Virus record (IMG/VR): IMGVR_UViG_3300032278_000137
Location: 1 to 21,491 of that record
Length of the DNA stretch: 21,491 nt
Direction: 5' to 3' (one strand)
Origin: a virus
Position numbers and translations under genes: made by a program. Within the stretch, counting starts at the first letter, position 1. The number at the start of each line of letters is the position of its first letter. Under the pieces are notes generated by a model that worked only from the letters and a program-made list of their open reading frames with translations, was not told where the DNA came from and made no database searches. Shown one piece after another: positions 15,229 to 21,135 of this stretch.

Positions 15229-15414
15229 TTACTCGCCTGACTGACCTGTCTCCCCAGAAATAGCTAGCTTTTGTTCCTTTTTACTTAGTTCATTAAACCG
15301 GTTAAGAGAGGTGTCCGTAGCTACCTTCCTCATTATTTCCACTATCATTGGGAGTGTTATCTCCTTATTCAGAATGATGTCGGCTTGTTCCTTCAGGTAT
15401 TCTTTTTTTGTCAT
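15229..15414 (-). CDS. 61-residue hypothetical protein, last gene of the - block
   Basis: The product starts MTKKEYLKEQADIILNKEIT, is amphipathic and probably all helical, and has an acidic C-terminus ending GQSGE. ATG at 15412-15414 is used. The reading frame overlaps the end of the DnaA-like gene by 50 bp, more than other overlaps here, so a shorter start is possible. No good Shine-Dalgarno sequence is seen. The strong - strand terminator lies 41 bp downstream, which supports it as the final gene of this unit. I do not recognise it. Confidence 0.5.
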   Translation of the reverse strand: MTKKEYLKEQADIILNKEITLPMIVEIMRKVATDTSLNRFNELSKKEQKLAISGETGQSGE

Positions 15415-15739
15415 GGCTTTTAATTATGTTATTGGTATGTTCTAAAATTCCTTCCTCTGTGTCGAGGATGTTTTTTGCACTACGTAGACCGTGATAAATG
15501 CAAGTGCGTTCTCTGTTAAAGAACCAGCATATGTATTTGCCGGAGATTCCCAGCTTAGTTAAAGCATACATAGATAATTGCCTGGCTGTAGCGGGAATAC
15601 GCTGTCGATTTTTGCTTACCATCGTTTCTATTTCCACGCCACACAGATCAGCAAAATCCTCTGCCACGCCCTTACACAAATTAAACACGTTCCTATAGTG
15701 TTTCTTCCTATCCTCTTTTATTATCGGCTCGTTTTTCAT
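15365..15739 (-). CDS. DnaA domain IV-like DNA-binding protein lacking the AAA+ domain
   Basis: Residues about 30-95 follow the DnaA C-terminal DNA-binding domain. They read CGVEIETMVSKNRQRIPATA, then ARQLSMYALTKLGISGKYIC, then a recognition-helix signature WFFNRERTCIYHGLRSAKNI that corresponds to the FGRDHTTVxxA motif. At 124 residues there is no room for the ATPase domain III. Domain IV binds DnaA boxes in bacterial origins. A phage stand-alone copy could recruit or compete with host replication factors, or act as a transcription regulator; this is inference. The gene starts 32 nt inside the end of the HNH gene, so the two are coupled. Confidence 0.72.
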   Translation of the reverse strand: MKNEPIIKEDRKKHYRNVFNLCKGVAEDFADLCGVEIETMVSKNRQRIPATARQLSMYALTKLGISGKYICWFFNRERTCIYHGLRSAKNILDTEEGILEHTNNIIKSHDKKRIPEGTSRHHSE

Positions 15740-16100
15740 TCTCCATCTTTGTTTTAATTTTGTGAGCTGCTTTGCTCACTGCCTGTAAATTCTCTTCGCT
15801 ACAAAACACTCTTGGCAACAATTCATTCCAGTTGTAGCCCAGCCACTTGGTTTTTCTTCCGAATTTATAAGGAACGACAGGATCGATATGATCAATCTGC
15901 ATCTCGGCTGCTGGAAAAAGTTTTCCTGTGATGGCGCATCGGAACATTTTCCGAGTGCGTTTGGTCTTTGGATTTATTTGATTCTCAACAAAGGCTTTAT
16001 TAAGCACCGAATATTTTGGTCCCCACCGAGCTGTCATTCTCCGCATACCGCTCATAACGAATGATCGAAGTCGTGCTTCAGTCCAAGGTTTCTTCTTCAT
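15708..16100 (-). CDS. HNH endonuclease with degenerate zinc-binding cysteines
   Basis: The N-terminal RLRSFVMSGMRRMTARWGPK (about 10-29) is the helical lead-in found in one phage HNH family. The catalytic segment is QIDHIDPVVP (68-77, H71), with CSEENLQAV (100-108, N104) and AHKIKT (112-117, H113). Relatives usually carry CxxC before DHI and CxxCH near the end. Here the first pair is CAIT (C55 only) and the second is SKAAH, so the structural zinc site looks lost while the catalytic residues remain. Possible roles are recombination, nicking for replication, packaging or mobility. ATG at 16098-16100 lies 3 nt after the homing endonuclease stop. Confidence 0.75.
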   Translation of the reverse strand: MKKKPWTEARLRSFVMSGMRRMTARWGPKYSVLNKAFVENQINPKTKRTRKMFRCAITGKLFPAAEMQIDHIDPVVPYKFGRKTKWLGYNWNELLPRVFCSEENLQAVSKAAHKIKTKMENEKRADNKRG

Positions 16101-16103
16101 AGT

Positions 16104-16640
16104 TCATGGTTTAAATTTATTTAATGCTTCTGGGTTGTAGCCGTCATTGATGGCTGCCTTGTTATAGGCTCTTGCTGCTTCCTCCTCCTCATCAAAGCGG
16201 CCAAGGTGTTTGCCTTTTCCATCCACCTGGATCCTAGCCTGCCACCTTTTTTTATTCTTGTCCCAAGTAACACCCCGGAATTGAGAACTACACCCTCGTC
16301 GCTTGGTTAGGAAGCTTCTGCGATTCATTTCACGGGTTACCATTCTCAGATTCTCAATATTGTTTTGTGTTTTCACTCCATTGATGTGATCCACTTCCAA
16401 GTTTTCAACCCAATCAGGTCTAAAAGCTTGAGCAACTAGACGGGAAACTAGGCAAAGTTTTCTCCTCTCCCCTTTTCCACCAAAGAGTTCAATCATTCGG
16501 TATTCTGAAACTGTGTTTTCTTTAAGGATCTTCTCCCTGCCAAATTTCAGGGATCTAACCCTGCCTCGGTTGGAGACTTGGTAGTCTCCGTCATATCCTT
16601 CGATGTCTTTCCACATTTCTTTGTCTATATCCATCTTCAC
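16104..16640 (-). CDS. NUMOD4-HNH-AP2 homing endonuclease
   Basis: Three modules are visible. NUMOD4 is at about 9-32 (MWKDIEGYDGDYQVSNRGRV). HNH is at about 66-106 (LEVDHINGVKTQNNIENLRM). An AP2/ERF-like DNA-binding domain is at about 119-165 (SSQFRGVTWDKNKKRWQARI, then HLGRFDEEEEAARAYNKAAI). This is the classic free-standing phage homing nuclease, a selfish element that spreads by cutting related phage DNA beside its own insertion site. The usual HRLVA before the HNH core reads SRLVA (residues 66-70). The annotated GTG at 16640 overlaps the exonuclease stop (GTGA); ATG at 16634 in the same frame is an alternative start. No host intron is evident. Confidence 0.88.
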   Translation of the reverse strand: MKMDIDKEMWKDIEGYDGDYQVSNRGRVRSLKFGREKILKENTVSEYRMIELFGGKGERRKLCLVSRLVAQAFRPDWVENLEVDHINGVKTQNNIENLRMVTREMNRRSFLTKRRGCSSQFRGVTWDKNKKRWQARIQVDGKGKHLGRFDEEEEAARAYNKAAINDGYNPEALNKFKP

Positions 16641-17407
16641 AGTCCGTTAAGTTCGTCATAGAAAATAAAACAGCTTATGGAATCACTCAAAGCCTTCTCA
16701 AAAGCCTTGTCGGTCCACTCCTTCACATGCGTTGAGCCTGTTTCTGTGTCTATCAGAACGGTGAAAATTGAGGGGTTGTAATCGAGGTGCATCATGTCTC
16801 GGATCATCGAGCTTTCGGACGCAAGCTGCATACAGTCCTTGGGGTAAGCCTTTTTTTTGATATCCCCGCCTTCAGAAACCTTTCTCGTTTTATAGTCAAA
16901 GAGGGCTATTTTACCACCGTTTAATTTGGCCAAAAGGTCTATGGTTCCGGCTGTGTTGAATGATGGGATCGATGAAGCGACTATAGTTTCTGTAGCCAGC
17001 ACTTCGATATTCCTGGTTTTAACCCAGGAGACAAAAGGCTGGATAAACGGTTCCCATTCATTCCACTGCCACTTATCGTTCATCGCCAAATCCAGCTGTG
17101 CGTGGCACTCGGTCCCCCATGCAGAGCTACTCACTTCTTCCCCGGTGACAGGATGTTCTCTGATTCCCCAAATTTTATCAGCGATAACAGTGTCATCCAG
17201 GTGGGGGTTCTCCCTGGTAATCCTAATGGCCTCCTTGATTCGCCACGACTCAAAAAATGAATTCGGGAGAACCTTCAGTTTTTCCGTAACGCTCGCTACA
17301 GTTTTCTTTCCGTTCTTAAGCCTCTCCTTCCGTGCTTGAGAAGGAGTGGTTATATCTTCTCGAAGGAAACCCGAGTGCTTGTCTGTTATTTGATAGAAGT
17401 GGCTCAT
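16637..17407 (-). CDS. RecB/Cas4-type PD-(D/E)XK exonuclease
   Basis: The core motifs occur in order: WGTECHAQLD (97-106, with H102), E140 in ATETIV, NTAGTIDLLA (151-160, with D157), ALFDYKTRKV (168-177, with D171 and K173), and Q194 in CMQLASES. These make a metal-dependent nuclease of the RecB/lambda-exonuclease/Cas4 superfamily. In phages it usually works in recombination, DNA degradation or end processing near the replication genes, as here. No iron-sulfur cysteine cluster is evident. ATG at 17407 lacks a Shine-Dalgarno sequence and follows an A-rich run. A 131-bp structured gap separates it from the dpdA-like gene. Its stop overlaps the homing endonuclease start. Confidence 0.82.
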   Translation of the reverse strand: MSHFYQITDKHSGFLREDITTPSQARKERLKNGKKTVASVTEKLKVLPNSFFESWRIKEAIRITRENPHLDDTVIADKIWGIREHPVTGEEVSSSAWGTECHAQLDLAMNDKWQWNEWEPFIQPFVSWVKTRNIEVLATETIVASSIPSFNTAGTIDLLAKLNGGKIALFDYKTRKVSEGGDIKKKAYPKDCMQLASESSMIRDMMHLDYNPSIFTVLIDTETGSTHVKEWTDKAFEKALSDSISCFIFYDELNGL

Positions 17408-17538: not shown

Positions 17539-18246
17539 TTAACTAAAAGTAATTTGTTTTTTATTGATTTTCCTAGAAACAAAAGGAGTCATCCAAGCAT
17601 GAGTAAGATTACTTTTCTTATGTTTACTGCAAAACTTTTCTAACCCAAGTGTTTGATCTCGGCTTCCCCTATTCCAACCAGTCCCATCGCAACTCTCAAC
17701 AGTTGGTAAGCACTGGAGATATTCCAATTTCTCAGGTGAATTACATCGCAGAACATGCACTCTAGGAAATCCCTCAGCCCACATCTCAATAGTTGACCAT
17801 TTAAATTCTGTAGTTCCACCCACACAAATCACTGATGGGACTGGGGACAGTCCTTTTACATCCTTAACATCCATACCATCCTGAACTGCAATTGCTAACG
17901 GAATTTGTGCCTTTAATACTGTTGGCGAATAAATATTCCACCTATCCAATGTTTGTTCAGCATTGCCAGGAACATCGGGTACTATTGCCCACTTGGCTTT
18001 TTGGTTGTTACATTGTGACCAGAACAAAAGTTTTTTCCATTCAACTTCGTTCTTCTCCCATTTATCGTAATCGAAAGTATTCTCACTTTGATTCCAACAA
18101 TTAAAAGATCCATTATCCAGGGCGTAAGGGAACCACGGCCACGGCCCTCGTTGGTCGGTAGGACTATAGAGATGTCCCAAACAACCAGTTTCCCTTGCTA
18201 GACAATGCCAAAACCATCCAGAAGAACCTGCGGGCATTATTATCAC
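17539..18246 (-). CDS. dpdA: DpdA-like DNA guanine transglycosylase (TGT fold), compact phage form
   Basis: The order of motifs matches the tRNA-guanine-transglycosylase/DpdA barrel. It has ALDNGSF (42-48), AIVPDVPGNAEQTLDRW (87-103, with D91), IAVQDGMD (119-126), ICVGGTTEFKW (140-150, the GG of the base pocket), RVHVLRC (162-168) and ESCDGTGWNRGS (184-195). D187 is a candidate nucleophile. DpdA enzymes swap guanine in DNA for a 7-deazaguanine made by the queuosine-precursor pathway. At 235 residues it is far shorter than bacterial TGT (about 370) and lacks its C-terminal Cys/His zinc site. Adjacent queD supports the assignment: its TGA overlaps this GTG (GTGA at 18246-18243). ATG at 18237 is an alternative start. 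Function is inferred from motifs and context. Confidence 0.72.
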   Translation of the reverse strand: MIIMPAGSSGWFWHCLARETGCLGHLYSPTDQRGPWPWFPYALDNGSFNCWNQSENTFDYDKWEKNEVEWKKLLFWSQCNNQKAKWAIVPDVPGNAEQTLDRWNIYSPTVLKAQIPLAIAVQDGMDVKDVKGLSPVPSVICVGGTTEFKWSTIEMWAEGFPRVHVLRCNSPEKLEYLQCLPTVESCDGTGWNRGSRDQTLGLEKFCSKHKKSNLTHAWMTPFVSRKINKKQITFS

Positions 18247-18593
18247 GGTCTATAAATTACGCTTGTTTCCGGTGTTTCATAGAAAACAATTCCCGATAGA
18301 ATAGGAATTTCTTCTTTTATTTTATTAAATAGCCATATCGCCAGATTCTCAGCGGTTGTGACCATCGGTAGTATTGTATTTAAGTCTCTGTGATCTAACA
18401 TATCAACAATTGGATATACAACCTGGGATATTTCCGCATAATCTATTACAAATGATCTATCATCAGGTTCTCCTGTACATTCCACGGAGAATTTATAGGA
18501 ATGCCCGTGTGGTCTGGAACATTTATGGGTATGCCCTAGATGAGGTAGGGAGTGAGATGCTTCAAATCGAAAATCTTTAGTTACAGTAATCAT
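18243..18593 (-). CDS. queD: QueD, 6-carboxy-5,6,7,8-tetrahydropterin synthase
   Basis: The 116-residue product is a full-length QueD/PTPS-family protein. FRFEASHSL (8-16) gives zinc ligand H14 and RPHGHSYKF (27-35) gives H29 and H31. C25 in HKCSRPHGH is the catalytic cysteine, MLDHRDLN (65-72) gives the D67/H68 pair, and TTAENLA (79-85) and FYETPET (104-110, E106) complete the site. QueD converts dihydroneopterin triphosphate to 6-carboxytetrahydropterin, an early step towards preQ0. It is coupled to the dpdA-like gene by a GTGA overlap. A hairpin terminator lies 26 nt before its ATG, so expression probably depends on readthrough. There is little room for a promoter after the hairpin. Confidence 0.93.
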   Translation of the reverse strand: MITVTKDFRFEASHSLPHLGHTHKCSRPHGHSYKFSVECTGEPDDRSFVIDYAEISQVVYPIVDMLDHRDLNTILPMVTTAENLAIWLFNKIKEEIPILSGIVFYETPETSVIYRP

Positions 18594-18619: not shown

Positions 18620-18647
18620 AAAGAGGGAGAGTTGCCCCTCCCTCTTT
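18620..18647. terminator. Hairpin terminator between the SSB-like gene and queD
   Basis: AAAGAGGGAG (18620-18629) pairs perfectly with CTCCCTCTTT (18638-18647) around an 8-nt loop. On the - strand it is followed by CCTTTTAAAT; on the + strand a TTTT follows too. It lies 64 bp past the SSB-like stop and just before queD, so it could end the first - strand unit or attenuate the second. Confidence 0.7.
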
Positions 18648-18688: not shown

Positions 18689-18717
18689 AGTATAAAACGG
18701 TTTGTCAATTATTAAAA
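18689..18717 (-). promoter_or_regulatory. Possible weak sigma70-like promoter before queD
   Basis: On the - strand TATACT (18689-18694) is a good -10 box. The hexamer 17 nt upstream is TTTTAA (18712-18717), a poor -35 that overlaps the SSB-like stop codon. A consensus TTGACA (18703-18708) is present but only 8 nt away, which is the wrong spacing. Transcripts would run through the hairpin before queD. Confidence 0.22.
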
Positions 18718-19314
18718 AGGGCTTTCCTCGGTCACTAGATGTTGCCTCTTGGCTACTGGCCGTGGACGCAAAAACTCCTCCTTCAAATCTCGGTTTTCAA
18801 TTATAGCATCCCTCACTTCCTTCAACTTGTTGGCAACCTCGAATACATCTTGAGTGAATGAATCGGTCACTCCATTAGCTTTGAAGAACGGGTCGTTCAT
18901 CACTACCTGGCTGGCATGATTAACAGAAGCCTGTGTTGAAATCTTTTCATCAACAGATGGCTCGCCGGGTTTAGCAATTCTTCCACGAGAGAAGCTGGTG
19001 CTGGTCCCCGAGTTACTTTGAGTTACGGTGAAGCCACCACTGTCGGGTTTACCCCCGCCATGCGTATCTGGCAACCTTATCTTCAAGTATGGTTTATCTG
19101 TATCCTGGTAAGTTCCACCAGGGGTTGTTACATCGACCAATGTGCCGATACCACTCCATGCTGGATCTTCCTTCTTAGCCCTTGCAATACCGTAGGAGCC
19201 GTCTTCGAACTCGACGTTTAAAACAAAGAATTCACCCCATTCGGTTTCATCCTTCTTTATAACGCCGTTTTCATCTTTTCTCACTTCAACTTTTGTTACT
19301 GTTTTTAGGTCCAT
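18712..19314 (-). CDS. SSB-like single-stranded DNA-binding protein
   Basis: The N-terminal ~85 residues are beta-rich with alternating polar and hydrophobic residues (WGEFFVLNVEFEDGSYGIAR, then YLKIRLPD), as in an OB-like fold. A Gly/Ser/Thr-rich flexible linker follows (about 86-120), then a helical charged C-terminal half. The last residues, EESPF, resemble the acidic -PF tip by which SSB proteins recruit partners. The position directly after primase-helicase (6-nt gap) fits the role. The family is not clear from the sequence, so SSB is an inference from architecture and neighbours. The start ATG has an A/T-rich leader (AAAATATAAAATAAA) and no Shine-Dalgarno sequence. Confidence 0.55.
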   Translation of the reverse strand: MDLKTVTKVEVRKDENGVIKKDETEWGEFFVLNVEFEDGSYGIARAKKEDPAWSGIGTLVDVTTPGGTYQDTDKPYLKIRLPDTHGGGKPDSGGFTVTQSNSGTSTSFSRGRIAKPGEPSVDEKISTQASVNHASQVVMNDPFFKANGVTDSFTQDVFEVANKLKEVRDAIIENRDLKEEFLRPRPVAKRQHLVTEESPF

Positions 19315-19320
19315 TTTATT

Positions 19321-21135
19321 TTATATTTTATTGGTTATTGGTGAGGTTTGAAACATTCTTGTCTTGGGATCAAACCATAAATCTTTTGTAAAAATTGCCC
19401 CACTATTCCGCTGTTTAAAGACAGAGAACAGAGCGTCTCCCTGTTTAGCAAACTTTCTTTTGTCGTCGTCTGTAACGGCCATCTCCTTCTGTGTATTCCT
19501 GTGAATATTACAAATTGTGTGGCTGGCTTGGGATAGTTCCTGCGCGCCGAGAATATTACCTGGTCCGGTGGCAGGATATTTTCCACCACCGGTTTCTTTG
19601 TTTTTAGCGTCTTCATGGGCGTTTAAAATCAAACTAATTTCGTTTTGAACACAAGTTCTCGCAAGATCCTTGCTGATAATACCCTGAAATTCCCAGTCCA
19701 TTTTCGGACTCAAAAACGTATAACTGTCAACTATCACACTAGAAATTCCATACTTCTTTTTGGCTAAGATAATTTCCTCTTTTAATCCATGCCAATTGCT
19801 GCGTGAATCCCGCATCAACTTATCATCTATAAAATACATGTTCTTCCCCAGGATATCAGCCATTTCTCCACACTCTTCATGCAAAGGTGGGCGACCAAGC
19901 CTCTGATGGGCCAGTTCCAGCATGATCGATTCTATTGGAATTTCAAAGGAGGCGAAAAGCAAAGGTTGATCGTTATCAGCCAAAAAATTAGCTATTTGAT
20001 AGCTTAAAGCCGACTTACCGGATCCGGTTTTTCCCGAGAGGCAAAAAAGCTCACTCTGCCTTATCGAAAGATCCATTTCCTGAAAGATCCAGTTCTTCCA
20101 ATCACGTTCTTGTTCCTGGCGAGTTATGCAATCCTGGAGCTGTATAATATATTGATTCGGCTTCACCAAGCTCTCAGACTGTTGCTCCTGACTTTTATCC
20201 AATACACTTTGAAAATCTTCTTCGCTGGGAGATCCCTGAACCCACCAGTCATTGGCATCGTTGTAGGGGGTTGGAATGATTAGCCGTTTGCACCTGTCTA
20301 CGCCTAAACGCTTGGAGAGTGTTAAAAACATGGCTTGACCTGCTTGATCCATATCAGAGCAGATGTATATTATTTTTTGGGTAGCCAGCATATCGTAGCA
20401 ATTTTCAATCCAAGCATGGTTGGACGCGCTGGGGACACTGATGACTGGGATGCGGTCTTCTTTTTGCATCTGATAAACACTCATCGCGTCGATTTCGCCT
20501 TCGCAGATAATCAATTTAGTGTCATCCGGATCGACCAGATGCAAACCAAAAGCTGTGTTGAAAACTGGCTTACTGCTCCAGATTTTTTTGGATTTCCCAT
20601 CACGCTGAAGCGATGTATATTTAATCATCCTGCAATTTTCCGACTCGTCATACAGAGGAGTAGCCCACCAGGTAGACGTAGCACTTTTTTCCTGAAAAAT
20701 TCGAAACTTGTTCAATGTTCGTTCGTTAATTTTTCTTTCATCAAGCATGTATTTCGCCACCTCCGAGCCTCTAATCGCTTCATCTTTGACCGATAACACT
20801 TTTACAGGCTCTGATGTTTTGATTGTTCTGATCTGAGTGTAACCCAGCCAGGTATGGACCCACCTCATGGTGCTACTGAAAGATCCTCCCAGATGCCTAT
20901 GAACCAACTCCAGGATGTTGATGCTTTCGTCCGTCTCATGGTCCTTCGCCAAATACACCCCGTTTCTGCTCTTGTAAACTGAGCAGGAGTAACCCTTGTC
21001 TCCTTTAAAATTACCCATCGAATAGCGACCGCCGGACGCTCGCTTTGCTAACGGAAAGAGTTCCGTTATGAGACTATCAATACGCCGAGATAATTCGGCT
21101 TTCACCTCTTGTGGGGATTTTGCTTCGTTAATCAT
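19321..21135 (-). CDS. T7 gp4-like primase-helicase
   Basis: The 604-residue product is close in length to T7 gp4. The N-terminal ~85 residues resemble the primase zinc-ribbon fold without its Cys set (YSMGNFKGDKGYSCSVYKS, with C51 alone; then VYLAKDHETDESINILELVH). TOPRIM follows, with LIICEGEIDAMSVYQMQ (208-224; E212, E214) and CSDMDQAGQ (259-267; D261, D263). The RecA/DnaB-type helicase has Walker A GKTGSGKS (368-375), Walker B SVIVDSYTF (466-474), an LILNAHEDAK motif (502-511) and FKQRNSGA (573-580), which holds an arginine-finger candidate. It primes and unwinds the replication fork. Its ATG overlaps the upstream nuclease stop (ATGA at 21135-21132). Confidence 0.9.
   Translation of the reverse strand: MINEAKSPQEVKAELSRRIDSLITELFPLAKRASGGRYSMGNFKGDKGYSCSVYKSRNGVYLAKDHETDESINILELVHRHLGGSFSSTMRWVHTWLGYTQIRTIKTSEPVKVLSVKDEAIRGSEVAKYMLDERKINERTLNKFRIFQEKSATSTWWATPLYDESENCRMIKYTSLQRDGKSKKIWSSKPVFNTAFGLHLVDPDDTKLIICEGEIDAMSVYQMQKEDRIPVISVPSASNHAWIENCYDMLATQKIIYICSDMDQAGQAMFLTLSKRLGVDRCKRLIIPTPYNDANDWWVQGSPSEEDFQSVLDKSQEQQSESLVKPNQYIIQLQDCITRQEQERDWKNWIFQEMDLSIRQSELFCLSGKTGSGKSALSYQIANFLADNDQPLLFASFEIPIESIMLELAHQRLGRPPLHEECGEMADILGKNMYFIDDKLMRDSRSNWHGLKEEIILAKKKYGISSVIVDSYTFLSPKMDWEFQGIISKDLARTCVQNEISLILNAHEDAKNKETGGGKYPATGPGNILGAQELSQASHTICNIHRNTQKEMAVTDDDKRKFAKQGDALFSVFKQRNSGAIFTKDLWFDPKTRMFQTSPITNKI

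Follow-up and report, generated by a model that had tools for sequence, protein, structure and literature searches.

A queD gene overlapping a compact DpdA-like gene in an uncultured phage: a probable minimal module for 7-deazaguanine DNA modification

Does a queD gene that overlaps a short gene with DpdA-type motifs mark a phage system for replacing guanine in DNA, and can a protein of 235 residues belong to the DpdA family? We analyzed a 21,491-base linear virus fragment from IMG/VR (the window, meaning this whole stretch of DNA), which had no match when searched in full against phages by megablast. The features at the center of the locus, and the genes on either side, are as follows.

16637 to 17407, minus strand: phage exonuclease, downstream on the same strand (phrog_298, E = 1.9e-13)
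17539 to 18246, minus strand: compact DpdA-like putative DNA guanine transglycosylase, 235 aa, GTG start (phrog_15826, alignments, HMM, and model)
18243 to 18246, minus strand: GTGA overlap of the queD stop and the partner start, 4 bp, read directly
18243 to 18593, minus strand: queD (6-carboxy-5,6,7,8-tetrahydropterin synthase), 116 aa (Pfam, aligned residues, and PDB matches)
18620 to 18647, minus strand: hairpin resembling an intrinsic terminator, 12 bp, short U-rich tail (consensus scan only)
19321 to 21135, minus strand: primase-helicase, upstream on the same strand (phrog_239, E = 6.3e-59; Toprim_2)

The initial annotation had described two genes overlapping by GTGA, and both open reading frames were recovered on the minus strand, with GTGA at 18246-18243; translational coupling of queD and the compact gene through this overlap is probable. 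The GTG start of the compact gene is supported by its homologues, 25 of which begin at that position or very close to it, with MI(I/V)MPAN. The hairpin lies 27 bases upstream of queD, between queD and a 200-aa ORF (18712-19314), and may serve as a stop for upstream transcription; no preQ1 riboswitch or any other Rfam family was found near queD, the hairpin region included. The compact gene is placed inside a block of replication and recombination genes. This replication block also holds a 124-aa ORF (15365-15739, minus strand) with a DnaA C-terminal helix-turn-helix (PF08299, 31.6 bits, at the cut-off), and 2 neighboring HNH endonuclease genes (15708-16640, minus strand), one with NUMOD4 and AP2, sit beside the exonuclease. 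QueE, QueC, and FolE were not found on the 21,491-base fragment.

The 116-aa protein matched PF01242 (E = 1.5e-28), is 43% identical to Escherichia coli QueD, and matched 5 PDB chains of the 6-carboxytetrahydropterin-synthase type at E < 1e-21 (best E = 2e-25; CPH4 synthases 4ntm and 3qn0). That it carries a full catalytic set, as had been proposed, was confirmed by alignment: H14, C25, H29, H31, D67, H68, and E106 are invariant across the window protein, E. coli QueD, and the aligned phage QueDs, covering all metal-binding and catalytic residues, and C25-x3-H-G-H is a QueD-type motif. Because the NCBIfam equivalog TIGR03367 slightly missed its cut-off (E = 4.8e-24, 84.6 bits; cut-off 89.25), the assignment rests on the residues and Pfam; with PTPS family membership, the CxxxHGH motif, and the catalytic D-H-E, the protein is, judged by its sequence, QueD.

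The partner protein was harder to place, with nothing relevant returned by searches of Pfam, NCBIfam, PADLOC, and PDB sequences with the protein or its profile. Its sole strong match was phrog_15826, a large phage family of "unknown function" (E = 4.8e-22) that also takes in proteins of Majeke, R6L, ReqiPine5, and R29Z as well as Sonali gp81; phrog_887 ("queuine tRNA-ribosyltransferase") reached E = 0.07 against the window protein alone, and 15826 was preferred. Relatives were collected by scanning IMG/VR, giving 62 close relatives and, with a family profile, 419 candidates, of which 80 were kept. Across 40 aligned members, D44-N-G-x-F, P90-D91, Q122-x-G124, G143-G144, K149, H164-x-x-R167-x-N169, and S185-x-D187-G-T-G-W were invariant or nearly so, which upholds the earlier reading of TGT/DpdA-type motifs in the right order. 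The motif order in the compact family is that of TGT, in which the matching positions are the acid/base Asp102, Asp156, Gln203, Gly229-Gly230, and Asp280 (Zymomonas numbering).

An AlphaFold model built from a 40-sequence alignment was a TIM barrel (pLDDT 90.5, pTM 0.86). In this model, D44, D91, Q122, and G143-G144 come after strands 41-43, 87-88, 117-121, and 139-142, respectively, with H164 within strand 163-165 and D187 within strand 183-188; the compact motifs are thereby modeled at or within successive strands 3-8, on the active-site face of the barrel. A first model, searched against the BFVD viral predictions, had queuine tRNA-ribosyltransferases as 3 of its 7 top matches (Bella96, Mufasa8, and ctKHH22), with Sonali DpdA and nt-1 R9TGF0 (the same phage and length as DpdA2) at lower ranks, and its best match among solved structures was TGT (E = 1.7e-3, TM 0.50). 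The better model matched generic TIM barrels among solved structures (3e-4 and weaker), with TGT outside the top 50. The PDB fold search shows the barrel class and not the superfamily, so superfamily membership rests on profiles.

Searched among about 780 proteins, the compact HMM matched the DpdA of immuto (5e-7), DpdA1 of Sonali (6e-5), and CPT_0056 of CP220 (3e-4). Phrog_887, the DpdA1 family, matched 25 of 29 compact members at E <= 1 (best 1.2e-6), and one locus (L314) fits both profiles (compact 5.5e-9, DpdA1 4e-19). No signal was obtained with hhalign against reversed-profile decoys, no match was obtained with hhalign between the compact profile and the single E. coli TGT sequence, and HVTV-1, the only DpdA4 representative compared, did not match the compact profile. 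PF01702 matched neither the window protein nor any of 50 scanned records; the 50-record scan is uninformative because it also missed the real DpdA1 of Sonali. By its fold, its ordered pocket residues, and statistical homology, the window partner is a barrel of the TGT/DpdA superfamily, and the best reading of the compact family is a DpdA subfamily that is neither DpdA1 nor DpdA2, with DpdA4 compared through HVTV-1 only. The suggestion that the 235-residue form may be a less described DpdA subgroup is supported: the compact proteins are a subgroup of their own, in a PHROG (15826) apart from those of DpdA1 and DpdA2.

We also approached the pair from the QueD side, using a profile built from 7 QueDs, and recovered 80 phage loci. 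The compact protein was encoded in 75 of these, always on the same strand (75/75) and within 1.5 kb in 74; because most seeds were picked beside a compact dpdA, 75/80 is the rate for one QueD clade and not for all phage QueDs. Pairing by chance is excluded by its recurrence in 42 sequence clusters (75 loci clustered at 90% identity). The queC gene was present in 22 of the 75 loci, and nearly all 75 had no second DpdA profile match. The pair was also carried by at least 18 contigs (20-83 kb) in which QueC and FolE went undetected across the whole record; the whole-record QueE search on those contigs, run without a positive control, is weak evidence. Starting from the compact gene, its neighbors were queD, queE, and folE (L104), queD and queE with a nucleoside 2-deoxyribosyltransferase (NDT)-like ORF in between (L120), queC and queE (L111), queD and queC (L119 and L122), queD (L105, L114-116, L123, and L124), queE (L106 and L109), or queC (L113 and L125, the latter a Verrucomicrobiales MAG). 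The compact family is thus tied genomically to preQ0 synthesis genes across many phages.

Several other features were recorded around compact genes. The queC gene adjoining compact dpdA in the L113 record (G043:C1:30628-31200) has one in-frame TGA, reflecting decay, error, or recoding. A PP-loop gene resembling PAPS reductase lies near compact dpdA in L027, L069, L084, L086, L092, R6L (gp7, L065), and ReqiPine5 (gp02, L134), and 4 records had a weak, sub-threshold match to the QueC PP-loop. A recurrent "dNMP kinase neighbor" was rejected, being mostly an overlapping frame at the 3' end of the compact gene, with a real adjacent gene only in L081, L082, and L085.

QueD alone cannot make preQ0. 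We consider it likely that queD and the compact gene together form a minimal module for 7-deazaguanine DNA modification, in which guanine is exchanged with the help of the host. Phage QueD would increase the amount of CPH4, which arises early in the preQ0 pathway and from which FolE, QueE, and QueC of the host (or of the phage, encoded off the contig) would produce 7-cyano-7-deazaguanine (preQ0). The compact DpdA would then swap guanine in phage DNA for 7-cyano-7-deazaguanine or a derivative by the double-displacement reaction of TGT, with Asp187 attacking the sugar and guanine being released, Asp44 acting as acid/base, and Asp91, Gln122, and Gly143-144 holding the base. Modified phage DNA would resist restriction. 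We infer that DNA and not tRNA is the substrate, which base goes in, that the host contributes to making it, and that the change is protective. The initial interpretation is supported in part: the superfamily, the tie to preQ0 genes, and the compact subgroup hold up, and action on DNA, partial replacement of guanine in this virus, and a block on restriction are predictions.

Phage DpdA is known to insert 7-deazaguanines and to protect DNA (PMC6884629). Phage MED16 has dpdA without a preQ0 pathway and has dADG in its DNA (PMC8306585), and Salmonella phage 7-11 is cited in that paper, from its ref. 18, as likewise having dADG with dpdA alone. Phage Orion grown in M. smegmatis, a host without the pathway, had no dADG (PMC8306585). 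Counting against the proposed module, the restriction enzymes that were tried were only minimally affected by the dADG of MED16 (PMC8306585).

A wider proposal is more tentative: that the compact proteins form a widespread new DpdA subfamily in uncultured phages, that queD and dpdA make up a 2-gene unit parasitizing the host preQ0 pathway, and that a compact enzyme beside DpdA1 gives the phage another transglycosylase, with a sequence motif or a 7-deazaguanine of its own. The compact protein and DpdA1 or a DpdA1-like protein occur together in Sonali (L067, gp81 and gp87), R29Z (L133), phiG7 (L132), and probably L118, and because some phages pair it with canonical DpdA1, the job of the compact protein may differ. 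Such pairs also speak for an alternative that we regard as unlikely, in which the compact enzyme, as a member of the superfamily, does not itself insert 7-deazaguanine but removes or edits a base in DNA or assists another transglycosylase. On the same side are the closest relatives of the window protein (50-60% identity), whose 35 virus records, from possibly incomplete contigs, had no QueD, QueC, or FolE above the cut-off, and 9 of these que-less loci (L003, L008, L010, L014, L018, L020, L031, L036, and L062) instead have an NDT-like gene (PF15891/PF05014) directly upstream of compact dpdA. Against the excising or accessory role, every pocket and nucleophile position is retained in members found with queD alone, and a match to another DpdA profile is missing from almost all 75 queD loci.

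The NDT-like gene may belong to the module; in L120 (8889-9380) it separates compact dpdA from queD. Since the window QueD resembles QueDs beside more distant compact enzymes, module genes appear to have been lost and exchanged. In Escherichia phage phiG7 (L132:6827-7473), the compact gene consists of 2 overlapping ORFs, suggesting decay or a sequencing frameshift, and the compact gene of SHIN8 is also in 2 pieces.

Less probable again is that the compact enzyme acts as a tRNA-guanine transglycosylase of the phage, the pair boosting queuosine-type tRNA modification during infection. QueD feeds tRNA queuosine synthesis too, and the base pocket has a TGT-type Gln where DpdA1 has His; however, the compact enzyme has no C-terminal zinc site and lacks some 140 residues present in bacterial TGT, PF01702 does not match, phage DpdA1 and immuto DpdA are closer to it by profile than E. 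coli TGT is, and the gene lies within a replication and recombination block. That queD is an auxiliary metabolic gene with no relation to its partner, next to it by accident, would fit the lack of queD beside the partner's closest relatives but is largely refuted already and very improbable, given the same-strand linkage in 75 of 80 QueD loci and 42 clusters, the further links to queC, queE, and folE, and the 63-68% identity of the window QueD to QueDs adjoining compact dpdA in L114 and L120.

If the queD-compact pair is such a DNA-modification module, then PHROG 15826, listed under "unknown function" and overlooked by Pfam and NCBIfam, likely becomes a family of DNA guanine transglycosylases, and the machinery by which phages disguise their DNA can shrink to some 200 residues and a single gene of the pathway. 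The pair, recurring in dozens of uncultured phages, would mark a small, barely described branch of this known system, and 7-deazaguanine is predicted in many environmental phages without the full preQ0 pathway. A compact enzyme for DNA base exchange would serve as a practical tool, and phages with 2 different DpdAs make the choice of motif testable.

Among the named systems, bacterial TGT shares the order of catalytic and pocket motifs with the compact protein; reading the C-terminus of the window protein for the CxCxxC-H zinc motif of the bacterial enzyme revealed none. DpdA1 (9g and CAjan type; phrog_887, which includes the DpdA1 of 9g and of Sonali) is alike in its TGT-superfamily barrel, its D-(S/N)-G-x-F and S-C-D-(S/G)-(S/T) motifs, its tie to queD, queC, queE, and folE, and its position by replication genes. 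It differs in length (about 300-320 aa, against 194-242 in the compact family) and in its pocket, where a conserved His (PCFH) takes the place of Gln122 of the compact family; it was missed by pairwise tblastn with the window protein, belongs to a separate PHROG, and is co-resident with the compact protein in some phages. The window protein has neither a phrog_887-type sequence nor the pocket His. DpdA2 (Vibrio phage nt-1; phrog_10773) is likewise a que-linked member of the TGT superfamily without the DpdA1-type His, and it is reported to lack a His conserved in the 9g type (Hutinet et al., PMC6884629). At 464 aa, it is closer to cellular TGT, and hhalign found no profile similarity between nt-1 DpdA2 and the compact family (probability 0.6%, E = 0.098).

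The DpdAs of Campylobacter phage CP220 and Flavobacterium phage immuto are small (258-264 aa) and had the best profile scores among known DpdAs, a weak but real match, and the immuto gene sits among QueD, QueE, FolE, and QueF. We take these 2 proteins to be, probably, the DpdA3 subfamily (Cui et al. 2023). They resemble the compact family in the motifs LDN-x-x-F, VPDALxD, VVQG, and LDT but lack Gly-Gly and SCDGTGW, score 15-25 bits only, and are missed by pairwise tblastn. Our literature search did not find a functional study of the compact family or biochemical data on it. The "DpdA-like tRNA-guanine transglycosylases" of actinobacteriophages (Majeke gp54, Sonali gp81, and Aoka gp40) belong to the same family, with Majeke gp54 and Sonali gp81 falling in phrog_15826; they stand at 25-28% identity, and Majeke, whose host is M. 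smegmatis, has the compact protein alone and no queD nearby. Because these members are already named "DpdA-like" in GenBank, the resemblance of the compact proteins to DpdA had been noticed earlier.
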